64,000 nucleotides of DNA from Parvibaculum lavamentivorans DS-1 (GTDB lineage: Bacteria > Pseudomonadota > Alphaproteobacteria > Parvibaculales > Parvibaculaceae), in assembly GCF_000017565.1 (NCBI RefSeq), contig NC_009719.1:2091001-2155000 (forward strand). Reading direction: 5' to 3'. Position 1 is the stretch's first letter, and every line of letters begins with the position of its first letter. The notes under the pieces are model-generated. The model saw only the letters and a list, made by a program, of their open reading frames with translations. It was not told where the DNA came from and did not search any database. Positions 5,103 to 21,188 of the stretch are shown here, one piece after another. Position numbers and translations under genes: made by a program.

Positions 5103-5391
5103 CGCGGCCTGTCCATTAATTGCCTCCACTTTGGAACTCCTGTTCACTGCTTGTGTTTTCACAAGAGCTTGTATGCGGGGCGGATACAATCACGATCTAT
5201 GGTGACAAAAGCCTGTCGTAAATGCGGGCCCCCGAGGCATTGGACCGAGGTGAACCCGTCAAGATACCGCCATGCTGCGGTAGTAGTAGCAAGCTGCCGC
5301 CGTCCGTTAACCTCACTATGCTTTGTGCGGATGCGAAGGGTCCTGTTATGCGCTATCGTTGGTACACACCGCGACTTGGAGAGACCGCTCA

Positions 5392-6912
5392 ATGAGAGGG
5401 TTTGGCGACCAGACAGACGACGAGATCGTCCTCGCCGCACCGGGTGTAACAGGTGACGTCGCAGCGGCCGCGCGCAGCAGCAGAGAGGCTTATCCGGCCT
5501 CAGGCGACTTCCTCAAAGACCAGCCCCTTATCTCCAAGCAGGTGATTTCGGATATCACCATGTGTGCCGATGGCGTCATCATCTTTGTCGCCGCTCTGAT
5601 TGCTAAATGGGCCTATATCGGCCAGTTCCTCGACCTTACGAGAAATTCAACCCCCTACGCGGTCATCGGCGGGGTGGGCGCGGTCCTTGCCGTTGCGATG
5701 CTGAAGTATCAGGGGATTTATCAGTTCAACGCATTGAGCAATGGGCGAGGCCAGAAGAGGCGGATACTGATAGGCCTCTTCGTCACAGCCTTGTTGCTCG
5801 TTGGTATCGGCTATCTCTTGAAAATTTCGGAACAATATTCCCGCGGCTGGTTTGTCGCGTGGTTCGGCCTATCCACGGTACTTGTTCTGTCGCTTCATTT
5901 TGCCGGTTCGCGCTTCCTCCAATGGCTGGTGGCCCTCGGCTCCTTCGCGCGGAACGTTGTTATTTATGGCAGCGGCGAAATCGCGGAAAGCGTCATACGC
6001 GGTATCGGTACGTCCTCCATGAACCTTCGCGTGATAGGCGTCTTTGACGACCTGCCACCGGACCAGATTCCCCGCGTTCCCGTGCGCGGTGGTCTGTCGG
6101 ATTTGATCGTTTTCGGTCAGAAGCACAGGATCGACGAGGTTCTGATTGCCATGCCGCTGACGAGTGAGCTGCGAATTGCCAATTTGGTGGAACAGCTTTC
6201 CTTGTTGCCTACCGACATCAGGATTTGTCCGAGCGCTGCGGCATTCCGCATTCCGCCCAAGGGATTGCTCAACTATCAAGGGCTGGCGGTGCTCGAGCTG
6301 GAGCGGCGTCCGATGGATGGCTGGGCTCCCATCATCAAGAGCATTGAGGATCGCGTGCTTGCGGCGTTGCTGCTGATAGGCTTTGCGCCGCTGCTTCTTC
6401 TCGTTGCCGCCGCAGTAAAGCTCGACAGCCGGGGGCCGGTAATATTCAAGCAGAAGCGCCACGGGTTTAACCACGAGGTTTTCAACCTTTACAAGTTCCG
6501 GACAATGTATGTTGCGGAAGGTAGTGGCCGCGTCGTTCAGGCAACGCGTAACGATCCGCGCGTAACCCGTGTCGGACGGTTTCTGCGCAAGACGAGCCTC
6601 GATGAGCTGCCGCAGCTTTTCAACGTGCTCATCGGCGAAATGTCGCTGGTAGGACCGAGGCCGCATGCCATCGCGCACAATGAGTACTACTCGGCAGTTC
6701 TCGATCGTTATGCGAACCGCCACAAGGTGAAGCCCGGCATGACGGGTTGGGCGCAGGTCAAAGGCTATCGAGGCGAAACCGATACGCCCGAAAAGATGCG
6801 CCGCAGAGTCGAGCATGATCTCTACTACATCGAAAACTGGTCGGTGTGGCTTGATCTGAAGATCATCATAATGACGCCGTTCTACGGCTTCATCGGCAAA
6901 AACGCCTTCTAG
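5392..6912 (+). CDS. undecaprenyl-phosphate glucose phosphotransferase, WcaJ type
   Basis: This membrane enzyme starts repeat-unit assembly by moving hexose-1-phosphate from a UDP-sugar to undecaprenyl phosphate. Its 506 residues show the polyisoprenyl-phosphate hexose-1-P transferase layout: four to five N-terminal membrane spans, a cytoplasmic Rossmann-like section ([13 protein letters not shown]), another hydrophobic hairpin ([15 protein letters not shown]), and the catalytic domain with [32 protein letters not shown] and [13 protein letters not shown] 5392 follows TTGGAGAGA. The substrate is assigned by similarity to the WcaJ subfamily and is an inference. The 289 bases upstream (5103-5391) hold no gene that I can support. 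Confidence 0.9.
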
Positions 6913-6936
6913 GCTTCGGCGGCGTGTGCGTTCACG

Positions 6937-7824
6937 TTATTTGCGGGTCAATTCGTCGAGGACCGGCCGGAACTTGGGCGCTATATCCGGCCGCGACAGG
7001 GCAAGCGCCACATTGGCGGCGAGATAGCCGATCTTGTCGCCGCAATCATAGGTGGTGCCTTCGAAGCGGTAGGAGAAGAAATCCTGCTCGCCCATCAACG
7101 CAATCATCGCATCCGTCAGCTGAATCTCGCCGCCTGCGCCCGGCTTCTGCACGGCCAGCTTTGAAAAAACCTCCGGCTGCAGAATGTAGCGGCCGGAAAT
7201 GATCAAGTTGGATGGCGCGTCCTCAACTTTCGGTTTTTCGACCATGCCGGTAACCCGATGCGTTTCATTACCGAGGTTTTCCGCGAGAGCGACTACGCCG
7301 TAGCGGTTGACGTGCTCATGGGGCACTTCTTCAACCGCGATCACATTTCCTCCATGAGCTTCGTAAACATCGACCATCTGGGCAAAGCAGCCACGGGCGC
7401 CATGGATCAGCATGTCGGGGAGGGCGAGAGCAAACGGCTCATCACCAATGATGTCACGTGCGCACCATACTGCATGGCCGAGCCCGAGCGGCTCTTGCTG
7501 GCGAACGAAGCTTGCTGTTCCGGCAGCAGGGCGGCTTTCTTGCAGCATTTCGAATTCTGCTTTCTTGCCGCGCGCCTTAAGCGTGGCCTCAAGTTCGTAA
7601 GCGAGATCGAAGTGATCCTCGATGGCGCCCTTGCCGCGTCCTGTCACAAATACAAAATGTTCGATACCCGCCTCGATCGCCTCTTCCACGGCATATTGAA
7701 TGACCGGCTTGTCGACGACGGTCATCATTTCCTTTGGAATGACTTTGGTCGCCGGCAGAAAGCGGGTGCCGAGGCCGGCAACGGGAAAGACGACCTTGCG
7801 GATCTTGCGGGGGGAAGTGGTCAT
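6937..7824 (-). CDS. galU: UTP-glucose-1-phosphate uridylyltransferase
   Basis: It makes UDP-glucose from glucose-1-phosphate and UTP, feeding Ugd, GalT and the sugar phosphotransferases here. The nucleotidyltransferase signature VAGLGTRFLPATK and the following IPKEMMTVVDKP are clear, as is GRGKGAIEDHFD, which is characteristic of bacterial GalU. I start at ATG 7824 (295 residues, MTTSPRKIRKVVFPV) because this matches the family N-terminus. Upstream in-frame ATG 7869 and TTG 7905 would add unconserved residues. None of the starts has a strong ribosome site. It converges with the WcaJ-like gene and is divergent from manC. Confidence 0.93.
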   Translation of the reverse strand: MTTSPRKIRKVVFPVAGLGTRFLPATKVIPKEMMTVVDKPVIQYAVEEAIEAGIEHFVFVTGRGKGAIEDHFDLAYELEATLKARGKKAEFEMLQESRPAAGTASFVRQQEPLGLGHAVWCARDIIGDEPFALALPDMLIHGARGCFAQMVDVYEAHGGNVIAVEEVPHEHVNRYGVVALAENLGNETHRVTGMVEKPKVEDAPSNLIISGRYILQPEVFSKLAVQKPGAGGEIQLTDAMIALMGEQDFFSYRFEGTTYDCGDKIGYLAANVALALSRPDIAPKFRPVLDELTRK

Positions 7825-9591: not shown

Positions 9592-9744
9592 ACATCGCTT
9601 CGATGCAGGTTATTCCCTGCGATCGATGGCGGTGAAAATCAGGCTCTCCGAATACGAAGTCAGCTTGCTTTGCCCGCACGTTGCTCACTCGCTGTGAGAA
9701 GGGAGCGGCCGGTCGCAAACGGCTTTGTACGACAGGAGAGACAA

Positions 9745-10332
9745 GTGACACTCACCAACTCAAACGCATCAACCATAGCGGCGCCCGGTCTTTCTCCGAA
9801 AGGCGAAAGCAGACAGCCCGCTCGCGCGGACGCGCCTGTCCGTCTTCTGAGGGCGGGCAATGAAGATATAACGATCGGCGAGAACAGCATCCTTGAGGGC
9901 TCATTCGACACGCAAGGCTCCATGTTCGTCGATGGCGCCGCGATAAACGCGGATTTGCGGGCGGCGCAACTTTCGATCGGCGCTACCGGCCGTGTCGAAG
10001 GGCAGGCAACCGTTCTCCGCGCTGAAATAGCGGGCACGTTCGATGGAACGCTCATGTGTTCGGGCGAGGTCATCCTCCGTTCGTCGAGCAGGATCAGCGG
10101 GGAACTGAAATGTGCCAAGCTCGTCACGCATAGAGGTGCCGTCATCGCTGCCGAGATCCATATCGTCAGCGACGAAGAAGGCGGCGAAGAGGCGATAGCT
10201 GGCCTGTCCGGGTTTCCGCCGTCCTGGCCGACACCGTTCTGGAGCCGGCGCAGGATCAGGAAGCTTCTTCCTTACGGGTACGGCGCCTTCCTGACCCTCG
10301 GGGCCATGGGAATCTGGTCGTTCTTCGCCTGA
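9745..10332 (+). CDS. bactofilin-family protein with a C-terminal membrane helix
   Basis: Bactofilins polymerise without nucleotide into cytoskeletal scaffolds that place cell-wall or polysaccharide machinery. The 195-residue protein has a disordered N-terminus and the beta-helical DUF583 core (ILEGSFDTQGSMFVDG, then repeated GxxxG-type rungs to GELKCAKLVTHRGAVIAAEI). It also has an extra tail of about 50 residues ending in one predicted membrane helix (YGAFLTLGAMGIWSFF). The GTG start at 9745 is chosen because GGAGAG lies four bases before it. Most bactofilins bind the membrane through the N-terminus, so this tail anchor is unusual. It sits inside the polysaccharide block. Confidence 0.82.
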   Translation: MTLTNSNASTIAAPGLSPKGESRQPARADAPVRLLRAGNEDITIGENSILEGSFDTQGSMFVDGAAINADLRAAQLSIGATGRVEGQATVLRAEIAGTFDGTLMCSGEVILRSSSRISGELKCAKLVTHRGAVIAAEIHIVSDEEGGEEAIAGLSGFPPSWPTPFWSRRRIRKLLPYGYGAFLTLGAMGIWSFFA

Positions 10333-12568: not shown

Positions 12569-14158
12569 TCAGCAGGCGCCCCGGCGCAGCAGAACGGCGG
12601 GGAACGTCTTGAACATGATGGCGATGTCCTGCCAGAGCGACCAGTTCTTCACATACCACGCGTCGAGTTCGACGCGGCGCATATAGGTCGTGTCGTTGCG
12701 GCCACTGACCTGCCACAGGCCGGTAATGCCGGGCTTCGCGGAGAGGTAGTATTCCGCGTCCTCGCCATAGCGCAGCACTTCGGAATAGGTGACGGGGCGG
12801 GGCCCGACCAGGCTCATTTCGCCGCGGATCACGTTGATGAGCTGCGGCAGCTCGTCGAGGCTCGTCTTGCGAAGGAATTCGCCGACGCGCGTCACGCGCG
12901 GATCGTTGCGCAGTTTCTGGTCGCGGGCCCATTCGGCCGCACGCAGAGGATCGTTTTCGAGAACGTTCTTCAGAATGGCATCGCCGTCGACATGCATGGT
13001 GCGGAATTTCCGGCACATGAAGTCGCGCCCCTTCTCTCCCACGCGGCGGTGGCTGAAGAAGGCCGGGCCGCCGTCGAGGCGGATCAGGGCCGATACCGTC
13101 CAGAAGAAAGGCGCGAGCAGAACCAGCGCCAGCGAAGCGACGGCAAGATCGAAGCTGCGCTTCATGAGGCGCGCCATCGGCCGGTTCAGATTATCGGCGA
13201 GTGTCAGCATCACGAGGTCGTGGCTGAAGAAATTGCCGGCTTCGAGCGCCATCACGCCGATGCCCTTGACGGGCGGGATGATCGAGAAGGCGATGCGGGC
13301 GCGATGCAGCGCGCGCAGGATGTGGTCGAGACTCGCCATTTCCTCGGGCGAGGGCGCGAGCACGACGAAACGCGCGCCGTGGCGTTCGCAGGCGAGCTTC
13401 AGCGCGGCGGAGAGCTGGCCGCCGGCGCGATAGAGCAGGCTCGACGGATTGGAGGCGTTCCGGTCCGAGGTCAGTTCGGCGAGGTCGAGCGTGCCGGCCA
13501 CGTCATAGCCAAGATAAGGCTCGGATTCGAGCACCTGCGCGGCTTCAAGAGTGTTCTCTTTCGAGCCGATCAGAAGCACCGGCGCTGTCCAGCTCCCGTA
13601 CCGCTTCAGGACATGTCTCATCGCGATACGTGCCATCGGGATAAAGACCAGCGCCCAGAGCCAGGCTTGCAGCATCCAGAGGCGGGAGAAGTAATCCTTG
13701 GTCAGGTATTGCAGGAAGCCATCGACCAGCGCGACCAGCGCGATGCCTTTGACGATTTCCTTGGCTTCGGCCCAGAAGGGAGTGCGCTTCGAATAATGGC
13801 CTTTGGCAGCCCACCACAGCACAGGCAGCATCAGCAGAAAGCCGATGCGCACGAGACGGCTTGTCAGCTCGCCGGCCTCCAAAGCGCCGAATTCCGTGTT
13901 TAAAACCTGCACATTGATGCCGAAAGCGATTGATCCGGCAACGATCTGCGCCAGCGCCAATGCGCCGAGATCGCCGACCAGCAGCATGAAGCGGTCTGCC
14001 AGCGGCGTGAGCCGCGTGCCGGCGCCCGTCTCCTCGCGATAGGTGTCCTCAAAGCCTGCCACCTCCGAAACGGGGATGGGGGTTGCGGCTTCAAAGGCCG
14101 GGATCTGCTTTTCCAGTACGCTCACGATGCCCACGCTACCTGTATCCGAATGCGACAA
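12569..14158 (-). CDS. undecaprenyl-phosphate galactose phosphotransferase, WbaP type
   Basis: This is the second initiating hexose-1-phosphate transferase of the window, 529 residues. It has N-terminal membrane spans, a Rossmann-like middle (APVLLIGSKENTLEAAQ), a membrane hairpin (LAVASLALVLLAPFF), and the catalytic domain with [34 protein letters not shown] and KPGITGLWQVSGR. The last motif and the longer loop after FRTM point to the WbaP (galactose) rather than WcaJ branch. The divergent galT-galK pair fits a galactose role. The TTG start at 14158 has no strong ribosome site. Confidence 0.88.
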   Translation of the reverse strand: MSHSDTGSVGIVSVLEKQIPAFEAATPIPVSEVAGFEDTYREETGAGTRLTPLADRFMLLVGDLGALALAQIVAGSIAFGINVQVLNTEFGALEAGELTSRLVRIGFLLMLPVLWWAAKGHYSKRTPFWAEAKEIVKGIALVALVDGFLQYLTKDYFSRLWMLQAWLWALVFIPMARIAMRHVLKRYGSWTAPVLLIGSKENTLEAAQVLESEPYLGYDVAGTLDLAELTSDRNASNPSSLLYRAGGQLSAALKLACERHGARFVVLAPSPEEMASLDHILRALHRARIAFSIIPPVKGIGVMALEAGNFFSHDLVMLTLADNLNRPMARLMKRSFDLAVASLALVLLAPFFWTVSALIRLDGGPAFFSHRRVGEKGRDFMCRKFRTMHVDGDAILKNVLENDPLRAAEWARDQKLRNDPRVTRVGEFLRKTSLDELPQLINVIRGEMSLVGPRPVTYSEVLRYGEDAEYYLSAKPGITGLWQVSGRNDTTYMRRVELDAWYVKNWSLWQDIAIMFKTFPAVLLRRGAC

Positions 14159-16368: not shown

Positions 16369-17940
16369 CTATGCCCGCATGGGGAGTGGGTGCTGCGCTG
16401 CCGCCACCACGCGTTCAGGCGGGAATGTAACCGTCACCGTGGTGCCACGGCCGAGTTCGCTCGCAATGTCGAGGCAGCCGCCGTGATGTTCCATCAGGCA
16501 TTTGGCAAGCGGAAGACCTAGGCCGGTTCCTTCATATTTTCTGGAGAGATCGGAATCAATCTGTCCGAAGCGTTCCAGTGCCAGCGGAATGTTCTCCGCG
16601 GCGATGCCGATGCCCGTATCGGTGACGCGCAGCAGCATCGCGCCGTCCGCGACCAGGGCTCCGATGTGGACTTCGCCCCCGTCCGGCGTGAACTTCACCG
16701 CGTTGGAGAGAAGGTTCAGCAACACCTGACGGATACGGCGGTGATCGGCGATCAGATGCGGCAGGTCCGCGGCAATCTCATAGTCGAGCGCGATGTTCTG
16801 CGCCTTGGCTTGCGCCGAGATCATGCGAATGGTGTCTGTCACCGCTTCTTCGAGGTCGATATCTTCTTCATGAAGATGCAGCTCCCCCGCATCCACGCGC
16901 GTGAAATCAAGTACGTCGTTTATCAACGACAACAGGTGCTTGCCGCTCTTGAATATGTCCTGCACATAGTCGCTGTAGCGGGCATTGTTGAGCGGGCCGA
17001 AAGTCTCGGCGGCCATGATCTCGGAGAATCCGAGAATGGCATTCAGAGGCGTGCGAAGCTCGTGGCTCATCGTCGCGAGGAATTGCGATTTCGCTTGATC
17101 TGCCGATGAAGCGCTTTGCAGCGCGACGAGAAGCTCGGCAGAGGTCTTTTCGAGCTGCTTGCGGGTCTCATCCAGTTCGAGCACATGCGCGCGGAGACGT
17201 ATCGTTTCCTGCACCGACCGGTCGGCGAGATGCCGCTCCACGGCGGAGCCGACAAAAGCCAGAATAACGATCAGAAGCGTCACCGCGGCGACGGCAATCG
17301 CGACGGTATAAGGCTCGACGGCGTTGGATGCGACCTGTGCAGCCGCGTCGTAGCTCACGGTGACGGCCGCCATGCCGGTAAAATGGAGTGAGGCAATGGC
17401 CAGTGTCAGAAGGCCTGCGCCGATGATGCGTCCCCGCAGGCCCGAAAGAGAACCGGCCGCTTGCGTTGCCGCCGCGCCGAGTACCACGCCAAGGACGATC
17501 GACGCGGCGACATAGTCCCGGTCCCAGATCATCTGGCCGTGCATGCTGGTTGCGGCCATGCCGACATAGTGCATAGCCCCGATGCTCAGGCCCACAACGG
17601 CGCCGCCTGTTCCTGAAGGCCGGTAACGGTCCGCGATGGCGAAGCCGATGGTTGCAAACATGATCGCGATCATGAGCGAGGCGAATGTCAGGCCCGGCTG
17701 GTAGCTTGTCGGCGTTTCCGGCTGGAAGGCGAGCATCGCAATGAAGTGCGTCGCCCATATGCCGCAGCCGGCGACGAATCCGGATGCGAGAACCCAGAGC
17801 GAGCGTTGTCGCAACCCGGCTTCCCGCGCACGCGCGAAAAGGCTGATCGAGGAAAAGCTCGCGAACAGACACAGAAGCGCCGCCAGGACCACGAGGCGCA
17901 GGTCGTGTTCGACCGTTATGCAATTATACACGGTTAACAT
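16369..17940 (-). CDS. MHYT-domain sensor histidine kinase
   Basis: A 523-residue inner-membrane sensor. The first 230 residues form the MHYT domain: about seven membrane helices carrying three repeats, THFIAM (65-70), MHYVGM (123-128) and LHFTGM (185-190). Such repeats are predicted to bind metal and sense oxygen, CO or NO. A short coiled region leads to the HisKA domain with H293 in [10 protein letters not shown] and a HATPase with DTGIGI and GTGLGL. No response regulator is adjacent. A perfect TTAA-N7-TTAA site lies 27 bases upstream of ATG 17940, suggesting CtrA control. Confidence 0.92.
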   Translation of the reverse strand: MLTVYNCITVEHDLRLVVLAALLCLFASFSSISLFARAREAGLRQRSLWVLASGFVAGCGIWATHFIAMLAFQPETPTSYQPGLTFASLMIAIMFATIGFAIADRYRPSGTGGAVVGLSIGAMHYVGMAATSMHGQMIWDRDYVAASIVLGVVLGAAATQAAGSLSGLRGRIIGAGLLTLAIASLHFTGMAAVTVSYDAAAQVASNAVEPYTVAIAVAAVTLLIVILAFVGSAVERHLADRSVQETIRLRAHVLELDETRKQLEKTSAELLVALQSASSADQAKSQFLATMSHELRTPLNAILGFSEIMAAETFGPLNNARYSDYVQDIFKSGKHLLSLINDVLDFTRVDAGELHLHEEDIDLEEAVTDTIRMISAQAKAQNIALDYEIAADLPHLIADHRRIRQVLLNLLSNAVKFTPDGGEVHIGALVADGAMLLRVTDTGIGIAAENIPLALERFGQIDSDLSRKYEGTGLGLPLAKCLMEHHGGCLDIASELGRGTTVTVTFPPERVVAAAQHPLPMRA

Positions 17941-17999: not shown

Positions 18000-19697
18000 T
18001 CACACAGTGTCCGTTTGCTCCGTGTGCTGTGCCAGCCGGTCAAGCAGGCGGTAGAGGAAAACGCCCGCCAGGATGGCCACGACGCCCGAAATCACCGTCC
18101 AGTCGAGATTGGTCGGTACATAGGGATGTGCCGCAACGAGACGCGTCTTTTCACCGACCATCTCGTATTGACGGTCCTTGAACGGCCACACGGCCAGCAG
18201 CGAGCCACCCAGTACGCCGATCACCGTCAGGATCGTCTGCCGGTAATAGTGGTTCAGCAGCCAGGCAATCGCGCGCGAGAAGGCGAGCGCACCCGTCACC
18301 ACGCCGGCAAGCAGCGGCAGCAGGAAGGCAGTGTCGAGCCGTCCCAGCGCGTCAATCGCATCCGTGTATTTGCCGAGAATGAGCAGCACGAACGAGCCGG
18401 ATATGCCGGGCACGAGCATTGCGGCGATGGCCGCCATGCCGCACAGAAAAATGAACCACCAGGCATCCGGCGTCTGGACAGGAACGAGAACCGCCGCCAG
18501 GAGGCCAAGGCAGACGCCGAGAGCCATCCATATCCAACTCGCGAAGCCTTTAGGCTCAATATGTGAAATGAGGCCGACGATGGATGCGGCGATGAGGCCG
18601 AAGAAAAAGCCGAAGGTGATTTCCGGCAGATGCGTCACCATCAAAGACAGGGGCACGACACGGCTGAAAATGATCAGCGACAGGAGAACGCCGATGCCCA
18701 GCGGCAGAATGAACATGAAATCGATATGGCGCGCGGCGGCCAACAGCCGTCCGCGAAGCAGAAGCTGCAGAAATTCCTTGTCGACATGCGCGATGGCGGC
18801 GATCAGCCGTTTGTAGATGCCGAGAATAAGCGCCATCGTACCGCCGCTGACGCCGGGAACGAGGTCGGCCGCGCCGACGCACATGCCGCGCAGCACCTGC
18901 CGCGTCGGGTTTGGATTGTCGAGACCCTCGGGGCTCAGTTCGTTCACAAAACCTTGCCAGCGCGAGATCGCCCATCCCGCCGGACGGGCAGCGGCGTGCG
19001 TAATCCATGCGGCGGCGGGCGTGCCGCTCATGATCGCCAATGTCAGCATGGCGAGTGTGCCGCCCGTAACCGCGGCATCTGTGGGCCAGTGTGCGCCTGC
19101 CGCGATGGGGGGCAGCGTGAAGAGGAACGCGAGCGCCGCGCCTGCAAGGCCGAGCCGCCATGTGAGGCCGCGCCACCAGAGGGCAGCAAGCACAATCATC
19201 AGGGATGTGCGGATGTCGGGAAAGCTGGCGGAAGAATTTTCAGTCGTCTGCGCCCAGGGCACCAGATTTCCGATCGAATGATAGGTCTCGAAAACGAGAG
19301 AGGGCGAAAGGCGGGGCTGCGCCACAGTCTTCAAAAGGAAAAAGGCAACCGCCAGAACAAGGGCGGTGAAAACCGCGAAGCCGAGGCCGTCGCGAAAGCG
19401 GTCGAGATCGCCGCGCGCGATGACGCGAAAATAAATGACGAAACTTGCTAACAGCAGAAATGCGAGGAACTGCCCGCTGTCCGCCAGGGCCCAGAAGATA
19501 GCGAAAGGCTCGCCCCAGGCGACAGTTCCGTTCAGCGCGCGGAAGAGCGCCGCATCCAAAAGGTCCCAACAGGCCCGCGTCGCCGGCCACAGCCATGAAG
19601 CAGCGAAAAGCAGCGCCGCTATGCTCCATCCCAGAAGTGGCTTCCACTGCCATTCCGTCGACAGTGACACGTCGCTCGAGGTTCTGCTTGGCGGCAT
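18000..19697 (-). CDS. fusion of a PAP2-like membrane domain and a DUF368/PopT undecaprenyl-phosphate translocase domain
   Basis: A 565-residue polytopic membrane protein with two parts. Residues 15-230 resemble a PAP2 phosphatase: several helices, K123 and R129 in LKTVAQPR, and a late GAHWPTD (H203, D207). The usual central SGH/DH motif is replaced by SFPDIR (158-163) and the third-motif arginine by proline, so phosphatase activity is doubtful. Residues 268-565 are a full DUF368 domain (RGMCVGAADLVPGVSGGT, and LVPGISGSFVLL in its second half). DUF368 (PopT) members move polyprenyl phosphate back across the inner membrane. ATG 19697 follows CGGAG. The gene lies between sugar-lipid transferases that consume undecaprenyl phosphate. 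Confidence 0.85.
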   Translation of the reverse strand: MPPSRTSSDVSLSTEWQWKPLLGWSIAALLFAASWLWPATRACWDLLDAALFRALNGTVAWGEPFAIFWALADSGQFLAFLLLASFVIYFRVIARGDLDRFRDGLGFAVFTALVLAVAFFLLKTVAQPRLSPSLVFETYHSIGNLVPWAQTTENSSASFPDIRTSLMIVLAALWWRGLTWRLGLAGAALAFLFTLPPIAAGAHWPTDAAVTGGTLAMLTLAIMSGTPAAAWITHAAARPAGWAISRWQGFVNELSPEGLDNPNPTRQVLRGMCVGAADLVPGVSGGTMALILGIYKRLIAAIAHVDKEFLQLLLRGRLLAAARHIDFMFILPLGIGVLLSLIIFSRVVPLSLMVTHLPEITFGFFFGLIAASIVGLISHIEPKGFASWIWMALGVCLGLLAAVLVPVQTPDAWWFIFLCGMAAIAAMLVPGISGSFVLLILGKYTDAIDALGRLDTAFLLPLLAGVVTGALAFSRAIAWLLNHYYRQTILTVIGVLGGSLLAVWPFKDRQYEMVGEKTRLVAAHPYVPTNLDWTVISGVVAILAGVFLYRLLDRLAQHTEQTDTV

Positions 19698-19779: not shown

Positions 19780-21093
19780 CTAGCGGTAGGCGGGCAACCA
19801 GTCGCCATGTGCCTCGATCAGGTCGTCGACGAGCGCCCATATCTGGTCGAGCGAAAGCTCCGCCGCCGTGTGCGGGTCCATCATGGCGGCATGGTAGATA
19901 TGTTCGCGCTTGCCGGTGGCTATGGCTTCCATCGTCAGCGATTGCACGTTGATATTGGTCTGCATCATCGCCGCGAGCTGCGGCGGCAGGGCTCCCACCC
20001 GCGTCGGCGTCACGCCGTTCGCATCGACGAGGCAAGGCACCTCCACGCAGGCCCCCGCCGGCAGGTTGTCGATGAGGCCGTTATTGGCGACATTGCCGTT
20101 GATGACGGTGGGCTTGCCCGACACGACCGCGCGCATGATTTTCGCACCATATTCGCCGGAGAACTTCACCTCCAGCCGGTTCGCCGAAACGAGTTCGCGC
20201 TCCTGCGCGTCCCATGCCGCGATCTGCTCCTCGCAGCGGCGGATATATTCGTCGAGCGGAATGTTGAATCTCTCGATCAGGTCCGGCCTGTCGCGCTTGA
20301 TGAACCACGGCACATATTCGGCGAAGTGTTCGCTCGATTCGGTTACGAAATAACCAGTCCGGCGGAGCATTTCATAGCGTACCTTGTTCCAGCCCGGTTC
20401 CTCGCCCCGCGCCGCAATCTCTTTCAGTTTCGGGTAGAGATCCTCGCGCGTGCCGTCCGGCAGTTCGCGTTCGAATTTCGTATAGAACGCCATGTGGTTG
20501 ATGCCGGCGCATTGATAGCGCAGCGACTTGTAGTCGACATCGAGATCCTTGGAGAGTTCGTAAGCCGTACCCTGCACCGAGTGGCAGAGGCCGACATGGG
20601 CGATGTCGGGCGCCAGCCGGTTCAGCGCCCAGCAGTTGATCGCCATCGGGTTTACATATTGCAACATGAGCGCCCTGGGGCAGAGCTCGCGCATATCGTT
20701 TGCGATATCGAGCAGCACGGGCACGGTCCGCAGTCCGCGCATGATTCCGCCCACGCCCAGCGTGTCGGCGATGGTCTGCCGCAGGCCATGCTTTTTCGGA
20801 ATTTCAAAATCGACAACCGTGCCCGGCTTGTAGCCCGCGACCTGGATCATGACGATCACGAAGTCGGCGCCCGCAAGAGCTTCGCGCCGGTCCGTCGTCG
20901 CGGTGATCTCGGGTGAAACCGAAAGCGCATCGGCGATCTTTCCCGCCACGATGGCAGAAGTTTTCAGCCGTGCCTCATCGATGTCGTGCAGCGCGATGTG
21001 GCAATCCGCGAACATCTCGTTCAGCAGGATGTCGCCCACCAGATTTTTCATGAAAACAGTGCTGCCCGCGCCGATCATGCAGACTTTGGTCAT
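19780..21093 (-). CDS. GH4-family alpha-galactosidase-type glycosidase
   Basis: Family GH4 glycosidases use NAD+ and a divalent metal to cleave glycosides by oxidation-elimination. The 437-residue protein has the NAD motif MIGAGSTVF near its start, the motif LQYVNPMAINC (N148), and the likely metal ligands C170 in GLCHSVQGT and H200 in CAGINHMAFY. These match the MelA (alpha-galactosidase) branch rather than 6-phospho-glucosidases. ATG 21093 follows AAAGGGGAAA. It is divergent from the GH42 gene with 95 bases between, which contain an inverted repeat GCGCT/AGCGC at 21135-21150. Confidence 0.87.
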   Translation of the reverse strand: MTKVCMIGAGSTVFMKNLVGDILLNEMFADCHIALHDIDEARLKTSAIVAGKIADALSVSPEITATTDRREALAGADFVIVMIQVAGYKPGTVVDFEIPKKHGLRQTIADTLGVGGIMRGLRTVPVLLDIANDMRELCPRALMLQYVNPMAINCWALNRLAPDIAHVGLCHSVQGTAYELSKDLDVDYKSLRYQCAGINHMAFYTKFERELPDGTREDLYPKLKEIAARGEEPGWNKVRYEMLRRTGYFVTESSEHFAEYVPWFIKRDRPDLIERFNIPLDEYIRRCEEQIAAWDAQERELVSANRLEVKFSGEYGAKIMRAVVSGKPTVINGNVANNGLIDNLPAGACVEVPCLVDANGVTPTRVGALPPQLAAMMQTNINVQSLTMEAIATGKREHIYHAAMMDPHTAAELSLDQIWALVDDLIEAHGDWLPAYR

Positions 21094-21188
21094 GTCGTTT
21101 CCCCTTTTGGCGGGGCCAGCATTGGCCATGAGGAGCGCTCTTGCAAGCGCCGGCGTTTCCGGCAATCTGGTGGGCAGAGGGAGAAACC

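Follow-up and report, generated by a model that had tools for sequence, protein, structure and literature searches.

Loss of PAP2 catalytic residues in a PAP2-like/DUF368 fusion protein of Parvibaculum lavamentivorans DS-1 and its relatives

The fusion gene and its neighbourhood

The window, which is the whole stretch of 64,000 nucleotides of Parvibaculum lavamentivorans DS-1 DNA that was analysed, contains a gene that joins a PAP2-like N-terminal half to a C-terminal DUF368 domain (Table 1). Its minus-strand frame of 565 amino acids runs from an ATG at 19697 to a stop at 18000 with no internal stop. A longer start at 19808 (602 aa) was rejected because that frame would overlap the terminal part of the GH4 gene and because none of the relatives aligns upstream of residue 1 of the 565-aa form. 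The DUF368 profile PF04018 was covered from position 1 to 242 of 246 with 259.4 bits, against a gathering cut-off of 26, so the domain is complete, and the single uninterrupted frame with two domains described in the initial annotation was borne out. The signatures GAAD-x-VPGVSGGT and PGISGSF are both present in the window copy, with D278, G285, T287, G434 and F436 all retained. Two NCBIfam equivalog models for polyprenyl-phosphate transporters gave 207.5 bits (NF052564) and 101.9 bits (NF052563), both below the cut-off of 400. The C-terminal half is an intact DUF368 domain that would return undecaprenyl phosphate (Und-P) to the inner leaflet, an activity assigned by membership of the family as described in the available sections of two family papers (PMC9876793; PMC12893004).

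Table 1. Positions of the fusion gene, its domains and motifs, and selected neighbouring genes in the window
Feature	Position	Strand	Basis or remarks
PAP2-like/DUF368 fusion gene	18000..19697	-	565 aa, single open frame
PAP2-like N-terminal half, residues 1-262	18912..19697	-	Relatives match PF01569; window half aligned to them
DUF368 (PF04018) domain, residues 274-517	18147..18878	-	hmmscan E 4.6e-77; genome-wide search gave the same bases
DUF368 signature 1, GAADLVPGVSGGT, residues 275-287	18837..18875	-	Asp278 invariant in 20/20 aligned standalone homologues
DUF368 signature 2, VPGISGSF, residues 429-436	18390..18413	-	Alignment with standalone homologues
C1 motif region, residues 123-132	19302..19331	-	Alignment; Arg129 kept
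C2 motif, SFPDIR, residues 158-163	19209..19226	-	Alignment; His replaced by Arg163
C3 motif, PIAAGAHWPTD, residues 197-207	19077..19109	-	Alignment; Arg replaced by Pro197, His203 and Asp207 kept
GH4 glycosidase, upstream neighbour	19780..21165	-	Pfam; adjoins the fusion at many group A loci
MHYT-HisKA-HATPase histidine kinase, downstream neighbour	16369..17940	-	Pfam; adjoins the fusion at many group A loci
WbaP-like Und-P galactose phosphotransferase, carrier-lipid user	12569..14158	-	TIGR03022, 461.6 bits (cut-off 403)
Second Bac_transf glycosylphosphotransferase	5323..6912	+	Pfam

The GH4 gene, the fusion and the histidine kinase follow one another on one strand, with GH42, galK, galT, lytic transglycosylase and WbaP genes nearby. 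Within the flanks examined, this surrounding is largely conserved across the loci of group A, the paralogue group to which the window copy belongs. The kinase is not beside the fusion in L003/L059 and L004, and galK directly follows the fusion in L004. The flanks examined at L013-L017 gave no GH4 or GH42 match; there the transglycosylase adjoins the fusion at all five loci and the kinase lies beside it at four. The kinase of the window is possibly co-transcribed with the fusion. The initial annotation had placed the gene between two sugar-lipid transferases; two Bac_transf genes are indeed found in the window, but both lie on one side of the fusion, approximately 3.8 and 11 kb away, and the immediate neighbours are the GH4 and kinase genes. 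The farther Bac_transf gene sits among nucleotide-sugar genes, as in an exopolysaccharide cluster, and a bactofilin gene (9670-10332) is located at the edge of that cluster.

Distribution of the fusion

DUF368 was detected in 16 of the 27 genomes of the genus, including that of the window, and all 23 of the genes found carry the same N-terminal half. The remaining 11 genomes, some of which are incomplete, gave no DUF368 match; of the 19 genomes with completeness of 90% or more and contamination of 5% or less, ten had the domain and nine gave no match. The whole protein is therefore dispensable in the genus. The initial annotation had allowed for a join error, and an assembly or frameshift artefact fusing two genes was accordingly considered. 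No point in its favour was found; the fusion is independently present in 15 other genomes of the genus, every DUF368 gene there is fused, and the DS-1 genome is a single contig of 3,914,745 bases listed as 100% complete, so that the artefact was rejected as extremely improbable.

The fusion was also sought beyond the genus. In a sample of 385 genomes of the class, in which the genus was thinly represented, two genomes passed the family cut-off, both of this genus, and one other had a match below it. In a sample of 398 genomes of the phylum, 40 DUF368 matches besides that of the window exceeded the cut-off; 38 of these lie in frames of at most 376 aa, too short for a fusion of such size. The two longer frames (576 and 414 aa), both among the 20 matches retrieved for follow-up, showed no PAP2 domain upstream when read by eye. 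Among plasmids, 18 records matched; in no case did the match span more than 80% of the query, and for the 15 listed it was confined to the C-terminal half. Three scans of viral contigs found no further relatives. Within the class and phylum genomes sampled, the fusion is specific to the genus.

Identity of the N-terminal half

The N-terminal half of the window protein had no Pfam match at E ≤ 1, PF01569 included, and its identity as PAP2 is therefore drawn from its relatives. PF01569 matched 20 of 23 N-terminal halves at E ≤ 0.1, with a best value of 3.1e-9; the set scanned comprised 20 of the 23 fusions (the near-copies L006, L014 and L016 being omitted) and three free-standing copies. When ten such halves were scanned singly, eight of them with intact motifs and two of those eight free-standing, eight exceeded the PF01569 cut-off and two fell just below it. 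A profile search with the N-terminal half found matches in 25 of 289 genomes of the class. Besides that of the window, the five strongest homologues are free-standing proteins from four genomes (E 3e-19 to 2e-37), which carry SFPGDHG (two of them), SFPGNHA, SFPGGHA or SFPSDHA, together with R-x5-H-x3-D. Since the C2 and C3 motifs are intact in these five, the SFPDIR of the window is a derived loss, and descent of the N-terminal half from a PAP2 lipid phosphatase is supported at the sequence level. Two structure predictions, both made from alignments of only three sequences, had mean pLDDT values of 33.8 and 40.6 and were set aside. Searches of PDB sequences gave one match, to an unrelated enzyme at E 0.13, and none for the whole fusion.

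Residue loss in the two halves

The window PAP2 site lacks the C2-His and the C3-Arg and retains C1-Arg129, the C3 nucleophile His203 and Asp207. Alignment confirmed what had been read from the single sequence, namely that SFPDIR stands in place of the Gly-His motif at residues 158-163 and that the Arg of the third motif is gone (P197). Further changes in C2 are D161 and I162, at positions occupied by G and D in intact members of the family, and the residue after the C1-Arg is Leu, as it is in some intact relatives. Catalytic positions were kept in four of nine cases and other invariant positions in 49 of 68 (Fisher P 0.10). In the same comparison across 12 sequences, which are related, so that the tests are descriptive, P fell below 0.05 for L003 (0.006) and L008 (0.02) only.

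Ten residues were tabulated in the 23 fusions: R129, H163, R197, H203 and D207 of the PAP2 half and D278, G285, T287, G434 and F436 of the DUF368 half. The free-standing copies L025-L027 were excluded, as were L028 and L029, which are apparently the same genes as L013 and L014. Five fusions (L005, L009-L012) keep all ten residues. Another five (the window copy, L003, L004, L006 and L007) have lost both the C2-His and the C3-Arg and keep the rest of the PAP2 site and the DUF368 residues, and L008 has lost the C3-Arg only. In L013-L017 the C3-His is replaced by Glu with the DUF368 residues complete, and three of these five also lack the C2-His; having lost the nucleophile, this class should be inactive as a phosphatase. 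The remaining seven (L018-L024, group B) have complete PAP2 residues and four or five of the five DUF368 residues changed. Thus 10 of the 23, the window copy included, retain the DUF368 residues and lack at least one of the two catalytic PAP2 histidines, and no fusion is damaged in both sets. As to which PAP2 motifs the relatives keep, a question raised by the initial annotation, all five tabulated PAP2 residues are present in five group A and seven group B fusions. The proposal that both recycling steps are carried out by one chain fits the five fusions with all ten residues and is doubtful for the window copy, which lacks the C2-His and the C3-Arg.

Group B is a second paralogue group (L018-L024; L055, bases 6091-7731, in genome G001; L056, bases 5775-7424, in genome G012). 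The signature Asp is changed to Gln (D278Q) and PGISGSF to PG-x-SAAL (G434A). All 16 group A fusions have the five tabulated DUF368 residues, which are also invariant in 20 of 20 aligned standalone homologues; these counts are descriptive because the residues were picked after the difference in group B had been seen. Of the alignment columns, 52 are conserved in 19 or more of the 20 standalone homologues, and group A retains 84% of these and group B 64%. Eight neighbours of the window copy were sought at the group B loci, and none was matched there; the gene upstream of the fusion at L055 encodes UvrB-interaction and helicase domains. In three genomes, a free-standing PAP2 copy with intact motifs (L025, L026 and L027) follows the group B fusion on its 3' side at a distance of about 150 bases, and either fission or duplication could have produced these copies. 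Erosion of PAP2 showed no association with the presence of group B: four genomes with group B have an eroded copy and three an intact one, and those without it comprise six eroded, two intact and one intermediate, some of the genomes being incomplete.

Residues needed for hydrolysis of C55-PP

The mutants of Escherichia coli PgpB provide a standard against which these losses can be read. In the portions of that study available (PMC7413402), H163A and R201A kept 27% and 25% of the activity on C55-PP and 0.09% and 0.3% of that on PGP, so loss of either of the two positions missing from the window copy does not by itself mean inactivity on the relevant substrate. On C55-PP, K97A was fully active, R104A kept 2% and D211A 0.07%, and no activity was detected for H207A. 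The C1-Arg, C3-His and Asp, which correspond to R104, H207 and D211 of PgpB, are kept in all 18 fusions outside the L013-L017 clade. It can therefore be argued that the PAP2 half of the window protein is still an enzyme, restricted to C55-PP and passing Und-P to its own importer: the lost positions would matter more for phosphomonoesters (PGP), and Arg163 may replace the phosphate contact of the C3-Arg. Five group A fusions have lost the C2-His and C3-Arg together while keeping the other three residues, and a C2-Arg co-occurs with a missing C3-Arg in four sequences (the window copy, L004, L006 and L007). However, D161 and I162 are further changes in the window copy, and PgpB tolerates substitutions there poorly: S161A kept 0.14% and the activity of G162D was not measurable, even though G and D stand at the two window positions in intact members of the family. 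Moreover, R201A did not complement without inducer, P105A kept 3% (the window has Leu after the C1-Arg, as have some intact relatives), and the double loss of C2-His and C3-Arg is not among the variants described in the available portions of that study (PMC7413402). His-to-Arg substitutions commonly arise by one base change, and the N-terminal half evolves faster than the C-terminal half. A C55-PP-restricted enzyme is considered rather unlikely for the window copy, and little or no hydrolysis is placed ahead of it.

Evolution of the two halves

Loss of the C2-His required at least three changes on the full-length tree and at least four on the tree of the DUF368 half, and loss of the C3-Arg at least three on each; the minimum on these two trees was one and one for the C3-His and one each for D278 and G434. 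On rooted trees of the separate halves, in which the inner order is poorly supported and long branches meet, the stem of L013-L017 measured 1.03 in the PAP2 half versus 0.08 in the DUF368 half, and that of group B 0.19 versus 0.84. A fixed unrooted tree gave an equally directed and strong contrast for L013-L017 (0.93 versus 0.12) and a weaker one for group B (0.51 versus 0.71), with overlapping bootstrap ranges; the window tip measured 0.545 in the N-terminal and 0.135 in the C-terminal half.

Omega in the PAP2 half was 0.19 for the ten eroded fusions, 0.11 for the remaining six group A copies and 0.14 for group B, and in the DUF368 half 0.11, 0.09 and 0.14 respectively, with dS partly saturated and, in the model of all sequences for the C-terminal half, kappa staying at 1. 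The six-sequence set includes the intermediate L008, without which its values were 0.12 and 0.10. Three eroded subsets, one of which includes the intact L005, gave 0.15-0.25 in the PAP2 half. Among close pairs, omega in this half was 0.34 for L004/L007, 0.22-0.25 for L013/L014 and 0.26 for the window copy and L003, and L015/L016 showed no consistent excess (0.12-0.16 versus 0.08-0.16). Intact close pairs gave 0.06-0.21. Constraint on the PAP2 half is thus relaxed once residues are lost and for the most part persists, purifying selection being weaker but present.

These values bear on the view that the N-terminal half is a decaying leftover without a role, kept only as the start of the gene and for its first membrane helices. 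L013-L017 retain just 30-39 of the 68 non-catalytic invariant PAP2 positions, and the close pair L004/L006 had an omega of 0.63-0.76 in the PAP2 half versus 0.10 in the DUF368 half, as decay would predict, although the latter comparison involves very few changes. However, all ten eroded fusions are full length without an internal stop, omega in the PAP2 half of the eroded subsets is well below 1, and several Trp, Gly and Pro residues of this half are invariant in all aligned rows. Simple decay is thus regarded as improbable.

Possible role of the window protein

In the scheme that we favour, at about even odds (approximately 0.5), the window protein would be an Und-P importer whose PAP2 domain acts chiefly as a partner that captures lipid and has a structural role. 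When the fusion first existed, its N-terminal half probably converted Und-PP to Und-P beside the importer. Erosion of the hydrolytic site followed in the window copy and, independently, in other lineages, with the domain kept in frame; the half that is left would assist the importer and hydrolyse little or nothing. Dephosphorylation would be left to other enzymes: the genome of the window also contains one UppP (UppP/BacA) match and one separate Pfam-PAP2 match with C1-C3 motifs, as read by eye. Two DedA matches were also recorded in this genome. The second of them (L061, 101-1474) lies in a long frame with a phospholipase D-like N-terminal part, again by eye, and is perhaps another join of a lipid enzyme with a flippase family. 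The N-terminal half may instead bind or gate the lipid, which is the alternative offered in the initial annotation. Several points count against a partner-only role. The window copy still has Arg129, His203 and Asp207, and PgpB without the C2-His or the C3-Arg is still about one-quarter active on C55-PP. Loss at the catalytic positions of the window copy did not significantly exceed that at the other invariant positions, and the protein as a whole is dispensable.

A broader scheme can be drawn tentatively, with the odds against it. An ancestral bifunctional Und-PP phosphatase/Und-P importer would have been duplicated and its copies would have lost opposite functions, group A keeping import and losing the phosphatase (or narrowing it to C55-PP), and group B keeping the phosphatase and losing or changing import. 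Where both occur (seven genomes) and the A copy is eroded (four of the seven), recycling would be divided between two fusions that each work by half, and these may form a complex. The window class would then be a natural C55-PP-only phosphatase that arose by dropping PGP-specific residues.

We know of no mechanism described for the hand-over of Und-P from phosphatase to importer. Copies with opposite losses within one genus may provide a natural means to separate dephosphorylation from import, and the intact, phosphatase-eroded and importer-altered members of the family are candidate separation-of-function variants. The family is also a natural test of which PAP2 residues are needed for C55-PP, and of the need for Asp278 in DUF368 transport.

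Comparison with known systems

The vertebrate plasticity-related (LPPR) proteins are members of the PAP2 superfamily without activity and are said to lack catalytic residues. In this they resemble the window protein; unlike it, they are eukaryotic and have no transporter fusion. With E. coli PgpB and related PAP2 phosphatases, the window copy has in common the C1-C2-C3 order, the C3-His and the Asp; it lacks the C2-His and C3-Arg, and the PSGH of PgpB is PGDH in the intact relatives of the window copy (PMC7413402, in the portions available).

The DUF368 transporters of the PopT/VCA0040 type (PF04018, NF052564) share the signature residues with the C-terminal half of the window protein, which differs from them by its extra PAP2-like N-terminal half and by scoring below the NF052564 cut-off. 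Fusions of DedA with PAP2, such as Pseudomonas aeruginosa PA4011 (PMC12893004; PMC10127716), likewise combine an Und-P flippase-family domain with PAP2, but the transporter domain is DedA rather than DUF368 and, as far as the available text describes, PAP2 lies at the C-terminal end (PMC12893004). PA4011 failed to compensate for loss of the flippase PA4029, according to the same source (PMC12893004).

The closest likeness is to the dual-domain proteins of Sit et al. (2022), who reported that several microorganisms encode DUF368-PAP2, PAP2-DUF368 or DUF368-BacA proteins (PMC9876793); the second of these orders, PAP2 followed by DUF368, is that of the window fusion. The available part of their account is silent on the catalytic residues, on paralogues and on losses from one half or the other, which are reported here, and a search of the open-access PMC literature found nothing on residue loss in DUF368-PAP2 fusions. 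The PAP2-DUF368 architecture is therefore already published, and the evolution of the two halves, with phosphatase-eroded and importer-altered copies, was described in none of the papers found.
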